Shown piece by piece: positions 14,983 to 42,735 of a DNA stretch of 57,310 nucleotides. Each line of letters starts with the position of its first letter. Positions within the stretch are counted from its first letter, which is position 1. Source of the DNA: a bacterium (lineage in GTDB: Bacteria; Patescibacteriota; Andersenbacteria; UBA10190); assembly GCA_030698495.1 (NCBI GenBank), contig JAUYKA010000018.1:1-57310 (forward strand), written 5' to 3'. A program made the position numbers and the translations under genes. The notes below the pieces were generated by a model that saw only the letters and a program-made list of their open reading frames with translations, had not been told where the DNA came from and made no database searches.

Positions 14983-15013
14983 ATTGCCATCATAGTGCCA
15001 ATACCCCCTCAAC

Positions 15014-15042
15014 GCAAAAACCCGCTGAATGCGGGTTTTTGC
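15014..15042 (-). terminator. Intrinsic terminator after the 15060 gene
   Basis: GCAAAAACCCGC and GCGGGTTTTTGC form a 12-bp stem around a 5-nt loop, directly downstream of the 15060-15662 gene and upstream of the NUDIX gene. Confidence 0.8.
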
Positions 15043-15059
15043 GATTACTCTTGCCGATT

Positions 15060-33356: not shown

Positions 33357-33392
33357 CTCACATTACCACATATCGATATGTGGTAATGTGAG
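33357..33392. repeat. Perfect 36-bp palindrome
   Basis: Half-site CTCACATTACCACATATC followed by its exact reverse complement, with no loop. It lies between prfB and tRNA-Thr. It could extrude a cruciform or be a dimer-binding site; no T-run follows. Confidence 0.9.
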
Positions 33393-35135: not shown

Positions 35136-35170
35136 TCACCCATGTCCACACCGGGTGTGGACATGGGTGA
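35136..35170. repeat. 17-bp-arm near-perfect palindrome
   Basis: TCACCCATGTCCACACC, a single G, then the exact reverse complement of the first arm. It lies upstream of htrA, in the gap before the 35305 gene. No T-run characteristic of a terminator follows on either strand, apart from CATTTTT on the plus side. Confidence 0.85.
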
Positions 35171-38757: not shown

Positions 38758-38785
38758 ACCTTAATACGGCTTGTAGCGGCAAAAT

Positions 38786-38814
38786 AAACGGCTCAAGCGA
38801 CGCTTGAGCCGTTT
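38786..38814. terminator. Bidirectional intrinsic terminator
   Basis: AAACGGCTCAAGC-GAC-GCTTGAGCCGTTT, a 13-bp perfect stem between the convergent permease and tspO genes. It shares the AAACGGCTCA core with 23951. Confidence 0.75.
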
Positions 38815-38822
38815 AACCTCTT

Positions 38823-39299: not shown

Positions 39300-39371
39300 A
39301 CAAACATTTTAACACGATATAGACAATACGGATACAACGGAGCGGGTAACGGGAATCGCCCACTAATATAG

Positions 39372-39394
39372 CGGGCGCCCGCCGTACTGGCGGG
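39372..39394. repeat. GC-rich palindrome within the broken tRNA
   Basis: CGCCCGCC and GGCGGGCG around GTACT, inserted within what would be the T-loop of the broken tRNA-Gly. Confidence 0.6.
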
Positions 39395-39410
39395 CGAACC
39401 CAATACTGTG

Positions 39411-39481
39411 AGCGGGATACCAGAATCGAACTGGCGCATCCAGCTTGGGAAGCTGGCGTACTGCCACTGTACTAATCCCGC
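39411..39481 (-). tRNA. tRNA-Gly (anticodon CCC)
   Basis: GCGGGAT pairs with ATCCCGC. Anticodon stem CCAGC/GCTGG around TTCCCAA gives CCC; T-arm GCCAGTTCGATTCTGGT. CCA is not encoded. It is intact and lies inside the split tRNA-Gly(TCC). Confidence 0.92.
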
Positions 39482-39509
39482 ATAGAGCTACTGTCCTTAC
39501 CTTGCCTTG

Positions 39510-39535
39510 TCCGCCGAAGCTTTAGCGAAGGCGGA
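39510..39535. repeat. TCCGCC...GGCGGA palindromic repeat
   Basis: TCCGCCGAAGC TTTA GCGAAGGCGGA, placed directly after the anticodon of the broken tRNA-Gly(TCC). Confidence 0.7.
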
Positions 39536-39566
39536 GGAAGGTCGTGTTCTACCACTGAACCATACC

Positions 39567-39602
39567 CGCCTACGCTTTCAGCTACGGCGGGCAATGCCCG
39601 CT
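39567..39602. repeat. CCCGCC...GGCGGGC palindrome upstream of the broken tRNA
   Basis: CCCGCC TACGCTTTCAGCTA CGGCGGGC, overlapping the first bases of the tRNA fragment, with further GCCCGC just beyond. Confidence 0.6.
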
Positions 39603-39620: not shown

Positions 39621-39658
39621 GCTGTATTTACTTAATTTACTGTACTCGCTGTATAACT
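39621..39658. repeat. GTAAATACAG-family intergenic repeat (copy 3)
   Basis: CTGTATTTACTTAATTTACT followed by GTACTCGCTGTAT. It runs into the last codons of the 39637 gene. Confidence 0.65.
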
Positions 39659-40206
39659 CGTCCTTCCTGCCTATCCCACTTTAAATGAAACGGCAGTACC
39701 ACGACAAGTCTTTCTTTCGCTAGCTGCTGATATAAATCATCCGGCGTTTCCGCCGAGCGCTGTTGGCGCAAACTCTCTTGCTCCAAATATGGCAACAGGA
39801 CATAGTTGTCATAATCGTCCAGTATTAATCCGGTTGTATCCTTAATCTGATTTTCTTGACTCACATTTAATATTTCCGTGCGGTATCTTTCCGCGTCAGC
39901 TAAGGTGACATTCTGGCGCAGTTGCGCGTAATGCGTCAGATGCTGGCGTGCCAGCGTGTTTAATGCGTCAGCCGCCGTTGGTATCTCTTGTCCGGTTTTT
40001 TCCGCAAACGTCTGCTGAATTTTTTCTTCCTTCAGCCACCGCGTTGAACTGACGCAGCCCCTGGTTGTACACACTACCGGCCAAGGAAAATATTCCGCCA
40101 ACACGTTTCCGGCCGGATCGCTCCCAGCCAAAACCCATGCCCAGCCGCCAAGCAGCAGTAATAAAAAGACTAATATTACCAACCCTGTTATCAATAGCCA
40201 GCGCAT
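39637..40206 (-). CDS. Membrane-anchored protein, possibly SurA-N-like
   Basis: 189 residues: one membrane helix (about 3-27) and an extracellular helical domain (WLKEEKIQQTFAEKTG...ALNTLARQHLTHYAQLRQNVTLADAERYR) reminiscent of the N-terminal helical region of SurA/PrsA-type chaperones, without a rotamase domain. This is a weak resemblance. The C-terminus overlaps a dispersed repeat. It follows ftsB after 3 nt. Confidence 0.6.
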   Translation of the reverse strand: MRWLLITGLVILVFLLLLLGGWAWVLAGSDPAGNVLAEYFPWPVVCTTRGCVSSTRWLKEEKIQQTFAEKTGQEIPTAADALNTLARQHLTHYAQLRQNVTLADAERYRTEILNVSQENQIKDTTGLILDDYDNYVLLPYLEQESLRQQRSAETPDDLYQQLAKERLVVVLPFHLKWDRQEGRVIQRVQ

Positions 40207-42680: not shown

Positions 42681-42735
42681 AGTAAATTCGGTGATTACAG
42701 AAGCTTTATTTACTGTATTTACTTAATTTACTGTT
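42681..42735. repeat. GTAAATACAG-family repeat (copy 6)
   Basis: TTTATTTACTGTATTTACTT followed by AATTTACTGTTT, running into the trxB stop region. Confidence 0.7.

Follow-up and report, generated by a model that had tools for sequence, protein, structure and literature searches.

How does a bacterial chromosome come to carry a glycine tRNA gene in pieces, with a second, whole glycine tRNA gene lying between them? We analyzed a stretch of 57,310 nt (the window) from the genome of an ultra-small bacterium of the order Andersenbacteria (Patescibacteria), for which the original prediction had described the pieces of a broken tRNA-Gly with an intact tRNA-Gly(CCC) between them. Direct reading of the sequence, ARAGORN and Rfam confirmed both genes where they had been placed, with all parts on the minus strand. 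We refer to the broken tRNA gene as A and to the intact one as B. The parts of the locus are as follows:

39637..40206, minus strand: gene adjoining the tRNA locus and part of a syntenic block (tblastn)
39591-39565, minus strand: third palindrome, CCCGCC...GGCGGG, whose right arm extends into the 5' piece of A by five bases (sequence)
39569-39536, minus strand: 5' piece of the broken tRNA-Gly(CCC) A, GCGGGTATGGTTCAGTGGTAGAACACGACCTTCC, from position 1 into the anticodon loop (sequence comparison)
39535-39510, minus strand: anticodon-loop palindrome of A, TCCGCCTTCGCTAAAGCTTCGGCGGA, composed of TCCGCC-TTCGCTAAAGCTTC-GGCGGA (sequence, fold)
39482..39509, minus strand: 28-nt linker with a decayed remainder (CAAGG...) (sequence)
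39481-39410, minus strand: intact tRNA-Gly(CCC) B (ARAGORN; Rfam RF00005, 66.1 bits)
39401-39395, minus strand: T-arm start of A, GGGTTCG (sequence)
39394-39357, minus strand: double palindrome (17-nt hairpin, CG, 17-nt hairpin, CG) inserted between G57 and A58 (sequence, covariance model R1)
39356-39339, minus strand: 3' piece of A, ATTCCCGTTACCCGCTCC, made up of ATTCCC, the acceptor strand TACCCGC and TCC (sequence comparison)

A is interrupted by a single hairpin in the anticodon loop and by a double hairpin in the T-loop. The core of the anticodon-loop palindrome is also present elsewhere in the genome, and this palindrome may be of a generic kind, so that the left break is perhaps an unrelated later insertion. 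Perfect hairpins with arms of at least 9 nt are frequent in the window, with 14 occurrences against 1-4 in shuffled sequence (a count made for the window only); examples lie at 15013-15043, 33357-33392, 35136-35170 and 38785-38815, and some may be terminators. No broken copies lie near the three remaining tRNAs of the window.

To identify A, we compared its pieces with the intact orthologous tRNA genes of related genomes. Both pieces come from one tRNA-Gly, as predicted, since each matches the orthologue of relative G007 far above shuffled sequences: the 5' piece is identical at 32 of 34 nt and reaches an SW score of 58 (maximum of 19 in 1000 shuffles), and the 3' piece (GGGTTCG+ATTCCCGTTACCCGCTC) scores 40 (maximum of 17 in 1000 shuffles) and is identical at 24 of 24 nt to the orthologues of G003, G007 and G009. 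The anticodon of A had been taken to be TCC, which proved to be wrong. When the palindrome is skipped, the loop reads TTCC followed by CAA, after a CGACC stem, and TTCCCAA is the CCC anticodon loop of the intact orthologues in G003, G005, G007, G008 and G009, which rules out the TCC identity. The expectation that another tRNA-Gly(TCC) exists in the genome was borne out, as we found it intact at G000:C22:9003-9074 among the 43 tRNAs above cut-off in the window genome (G000). This genome also encodes tRNA-Gly(GCC) at C1:32027, and its CCC tRNA is B, presumably the working copy. Because an intact TCC tRNA exists and A, a CCC tRNA, is covered by B, there is no need for the rescue of A by unusual processing that had been considered. 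ARAGORN in intron mode, run on both pieces of A joined as one split tRNA, returned nonsense models only.

The surrounding genes place the break in its genomic context. The genes at 42728, 41745, 40693, 40210 and 39637 form a block on the 5' side of the locus that is kept in seven relatives (tblastn), and exactly one intact tRNA-Gly(CCC) lies behind the block in each of them. This tRNA is of the A type in G003, G005, G007, G008 (reversed) and G009, of the B type in G002 and of another type in G001. The relatives thus carry an intact tRNA-Gly at the position of the 5' fragment and not an unrelated sequence, which had been named as grounds for abandoning the prediction. Given this synteny and the matches of its pieces, it was here that the resident A was broken, in both its anticodon loop and its T-loop, and an intact, divergent tRNA-Gly(CCC) of the G002 kind, B, took over between the pieces; the proposed destruction of A by palindrome insertion is supported. 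B matches the tRNA at the syntenic position of G002 (G002:C3:180468-180542) at 87%, and its similarity to this gene and to other families of the phylum suggests an outside source and not a neighbour of A.

The insertion in the T-loop recurs at the same site. We found the same double hairpin between G57 and A58 (TTCG/hairpin-CG-hairpin-CG/ANTCC) in about 18 tRNA loci of the order Andersenbacteria, and also in Portnoybacteria and Elusimicrobia, in tRNAs for Gly, Val, Arg, Lys, Glu, Ala, Ser, Thr and Leu (searches of 13 genomes, plus contexts). In an alignment of 13 examples (A1), pairing is complete (156 of 156 pair cells) and 4 pairs show compensatory changes; sliding the pair partners destroys the pairing. 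A broad DNA pattern search of the contigs gave five exact places only, and a covariance model (R1) was needed; it gives strong matches in several Andersenbacteria genomes and across tRNA genes of many isotypes, and the TTCG and ANTCC flanks that it includes favour T-loop sites. The window copy, one of the 13 used for building the model, scores 70.4 bits (E 7e-19). About five of the model's matches in these genomes are double hairpins outside tRNAs (G009:C8:23677-23723, G009:C28:639-685, G008:C27:12014-12060, G010:C13:85154-85200 and G010:C25:14424-14470), some of them possibly within protein-coding genes.

Two layouts are seen at the T-loop sites. In type 1, the 5' part of a tRNA up to TTCG is followed by the hairpins, ANTCC and an intact tRNA of the same isotype downstream; in type 2, an intact tRNA is followed by a short spacer, TTCG, the hairpins and a tRNA 3' end. 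A nested arrangement like that of the window locus is found at the tRNA-Val(TAC) locus of the same genome (G000:C1:30000-30170; L063, L086), with a 5' piece (GGGCGGTTAGCT) carrying a D-arm palindrome, an intact tRNA, a hairpin-split T-loop and the 3' piece ACCGCCC. Further palindromes have gathered in dead 5' pieces at other loci. The T-loop palindrome pair of the window locus is a repeated, site-specific element of tRNA T-loops, and its complete forms are tied to a GIY-YIG nuclease gene and a replacement tRNA; the original prediction had missed this.

A complete element consists of a tRNA 5' piece, one or more hairpins in its D-, anticodon or T-loop, a small GIY-YIG gene (about 80 residues) and an intact tRNA of the same kind. 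T-loop copies with the GIY-YIG ORF between the hairpins and the intact tRNA occur at a Gly locus (G012:C55), a Lys locus (G010:C27) and a Ser locus in Elusimicrobia. The 5' piece of the Gly copy stops exactly where the hairpins begin, and along 57 nt it has 100% identity to the tRNA-Gly gene that is intact in G010. When a clean empty site was sought for the Lys copy of G010, G012 proved to have one intact tRNA-Lys close to the same gene, but with a local inversion. The GIY-YIG domain (PF01541) scores above the Pfam cut-off in complete relatives, and Y5, Y15, G17, R25 and E60 (Y, Y-x-G, R and E) are invariant in the protein alignment (A2). No PHROGs family matched two of the GIY-YIG proteins at E<=0.001.

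We then counted tRNAs near single-domain GIY-YIG loci, which were chosen by score and for which the opposite strand is the only control. In other Patescibacteria, 41 out of 66 such loci have a tRNA at <=300 nt on the same strand and 0 have one on the opposite strand; a further 18 Patescibacteria loci gave 13 and 2, respectively, and hence 54 out of 84 against 2 overall. The same was seen for 23 out of 30 GIY-YIG genes in Elusimicrobiota, with 1 on the opposite strand. By our own estimate (about 45 tRNAs per 0.9 Mb), such proximity is expected for about 2% of genes, in agreement with the opposite-strand counts. About one third of the GIY-YIG genes at the Patescibacteria loci have no called tRNA close by. 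At 22 out of 41 loci, the stretch preceding the GIY-YIG gene fits the tRNA downstream of it better than it fits all tRNAs of other isotypes (about 1 expected).

The broken tRNAs at these loci, as classed by eye, are cut in the D-loop (Asn, Pro, Asp, Ser, Glu and Gln), the anticodon loop (Cys, Gln, Leu, Ser and Tyr) or the T-loop (Lys, Tyr and Gly), and the loop that is cut carries one or two hairpins, unrelated in sequence. The duplicated piece begins 0-6 nt upstream of tRNA position 1 in 18 out of 18 scored loci, which were selected for sharing an exact 9-nt match with the beginning of the intact tRNA, a choice that favours pieces reaching position 1. This start may be due to the mechanism or to fast-diverging flanks. 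We also observed a second style, in which the intact tRNA comes first (Ala, Ser, Met, Gln or Tyr), followed by a hairpin built on its 3' end and the GIY-YIG ORF; at tRNA-Ala and tRNA-Ser loci, the first arm of the hairpin is the tRNA 3' end. Second-style loci with intact or decayed tRNA-Ala or tRNA-Ser are present at G000:C1:14400-15065, G000:C34:17607-17987, G003:C5, G004:C62 and G001:C11.

A phage enzyme offers the closest comparison. SegB of T-even phages is a free-standing GIY-YIG homing endonuclease (PMC13096335, PMC2988022) that cleaves at the motif RAWTSGAAC and drives tandem copying of a tRNA and its own gene (PMC13096335). The reverse complement of this motif, GTTCSAWTY, is the tRNA T-loop consensus. 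Among tested enzymes, SegB is the closest analogue of the bacterial family, and both have a GIY-YIG nuclease gene adjoining tRNA genes. However, SegB is a phage gene between tRNAs, whereas the elements described here lie inside tRNA loops of bacterial chromosomes and feature hairpins, a 5' tRNA copy and a restored tRNA.

A GIY-YIG family of tRNA loops is well supported by these observations, and we infer cleavage, homing and the origin of the replacement tRNAs. In the simplest reading, these are homing elements whose targets are the conserved tRNA loops. We propose that the GIY-YIG protein would cut a tRNA gene within a loop, for the T-loop class at GTTCG^ANTC, a site suggested by the insertion site and the SegB motif. 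Repair would copy in the hairpin-and-nuclease unit and would either duplicate the tRNA from its 5' end or bring in a homologous tRNA from the donor, so that a working tRNA is retained; only repairs that leave an intact tRNA would survive. The hairpins would abolish the site of cutting; they may also shape the leader of the mRNA for the nuclease, and this mRNA would be made from the tRNA promoter. Left- and right-handed repair could account for the type 1 and type 2 layouts.

The window locus has the loop hairpins and the intact tRNA of the same isotype, and it lacks the GIY-YIG ORF. Complete elements carry this ORF at the place of the 28-nt linker; none is present there, and no PF01541 match was found on the window contig (G000:C4). 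We therefore call the locus a scar without the nuclease and not a complete member, and its membership rests on the hairpin, the site of insertion and the nested layout. It is probably a degenerate copy, without GIY-YIG, of a small selfish DNA element that settles in tRNA genes by homing. In such a history, the GIY-YIG gene would have been lost afterwards and A would have decayed, and the anticodon-loop palindrome could be part of the history of the element or a later generic insertion. In a wider reading, which we hold to be about evenly balanced, these elements form a minimal class of mobile DNA across Patescibacteria and Elusimicrobiota, consisting of loop hairpins and a nuclease of about 80 residues, which invades many isotypes at conserved loops, copies a tRNA 5' piece exactly from the first base and replaces or swaps essential tRNAs; in the window, the resident tRNA-Gly(CCC) would have been exchanged for a foreign one.

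The most serious competitor holds that generic palindromes of the genome landed by chance in a redundant tRNA-Gly pseudogene beside a second tRNA-Gly, with no nuclease element involved here. The excess of perfect hairpins in the window (14 vs 1-4 in shuffles), the recurrence of the anticodon-loop palindrome core, the palindromes in dead 5' pieces at other loci and the missing GIY-YIG gene would all fit this account, but chance would have to place the hairpin pair at G57^A58 in about 18 tRNA loci that span several isotypes, and again in two further lineages, with a GIY-YIG gene next to some of these loci, and would have to yield the nested layout a second time at tRNA-Val. We consider it unlikely.

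An integrative element that targets tRNAs might instead have left an attR-like duplicated tRNA end before being deleted. Type 2 loci, with an intact tRNA, a spacer and a 3' copy, do resemble attL/attR, and exact 3' copies exist at Lys loci in G009 and Portnoybacteria. Yet by inspection we noticed no integrase on reading the loci or among the ORFs listed around the window locus, the spacers are merely about 8-65 nt long, and loci that have 5' copies and a GIY-YIG ORF bear the same pair of hairpins. To our knowledge, integrases never leave a double hairpin in the T-loop, and we regard this origin as very improbable. Still harder to credit is a functional split tRNA, with pieces joined after transcription or hairpins removed like introns: the acceptor complementarity is kept between the pieces (GCGGGTA/TACCCGC) and the hairpins sit in loops, where RNA often tolerates cutting, but the anticodon 3' strand and the variable loop are lost between the pieces, and an intact tRNA with the same anticodon lies inside. 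In most of the complete elements that we read there is also a whole tRNA of this kind, for which there would be no need if the broken copy worked. A degenerate homing element remains our preferred reading.

Other known systems share some of these features. Insertion sequences in rRNA genes of CPR bacteria include some that encode GIY-YIG proteins and match no intron; the insertions lie mostly at the top or base of stem-loops of the rRNA, and the study that describes them regards GIY-YIG as not spread by homing and makes no mention of tRNA, hairpins or palindromes in its main text (PMC11270868). They resemble the elements described here in host group and in GIY-YIG ORFs that lie in stable-RNA genes and not in group I/II introns, but they target rRNA and not tRNA. 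The mitochondria of fungi and algae contain double-hairpin elements and GC clusters, in which two G+C-rich hairpins lie side by side and enter loops of structural-RNA genes; the elements described here differ in having a nuclease ORF, exact tRNA sites, tRNA restoration and a bacterial host. Rickettsia palindromic elements and other bacterial palindromic repeats are likewise dispersed palindromes that enter genes, but we know of no nuclease partner or fixed tRNA-loop site for them. Integrative elements that target tRNA genes likewise keep one intact copy, but they depend on integrases, exchange the 3' end alone and do not leave hairpins in loops.

A literature search, with subscription papers and preprints largely outside it, gave no description of GIY-YIG elements in the tRNA loops of these bacteria, and a widespread selfish DNA of tRNA loops with a small GIY-YIG nuclease is apparently undescribed. 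As tRNA loops are among the most conserved sequences of a genome, a single loop-reading nuclease could enter nearly every tRNA gene. By breaking an essential tRNA and yet leaving an intact one, such an element would illustrate how selfish DNA lives in indispensable genes and would offer a route for horizontal tRNA replacement; it may also explain the many small GIY-YIG genes in otherwise streamlined genomes. In addition, it connects the chromosomes of bacteria with SegB, a tRNA-cutting phage enzyme reported recently, and both kinds of enzyme are testable with short proteins and short DNA targets.

Several observations on these genomes stand beside the main analysis. A group I intron was considered and rejected, as an Rfam search of the window and nine loci returned tRNAs and one LOOT RNA and no group I intron; for a group I intron with a GIY-YIG protein, one ORF gave a weak TIGR01453 match below the cut-off. 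The LOOT RNA (RF03000, 74.3 bits) lies at L190:2626-2743 in relative G004. The window genome has two very unlike tRNA-His(GTG) genes (G000:C17:29025-29098 and G000:C12:20715-20785). At its tRNA-Cys locus (G000:C1:36800-37450; L203), a 5' piece with a palindromic insert in the anticodon loop precedes a GIY-YIG ORF, an intact tRNA-Cys follows 23 nt past the GIY-YIG core, and a 3' tRNA-Cys piece with a near-identical anticodon-loop insert comes last; this is the fullest two-sided copy that we observed in this genome. At another tRNA-Cys locus (G049:C33; L232), the 5' part of the broken tRNA is preserved, as are a hairpin in the anticodon loop and everything from the T-loop to the 3' end; a GIY-YIG gene and an intact tRNA-Cys with the same 5' part follow.
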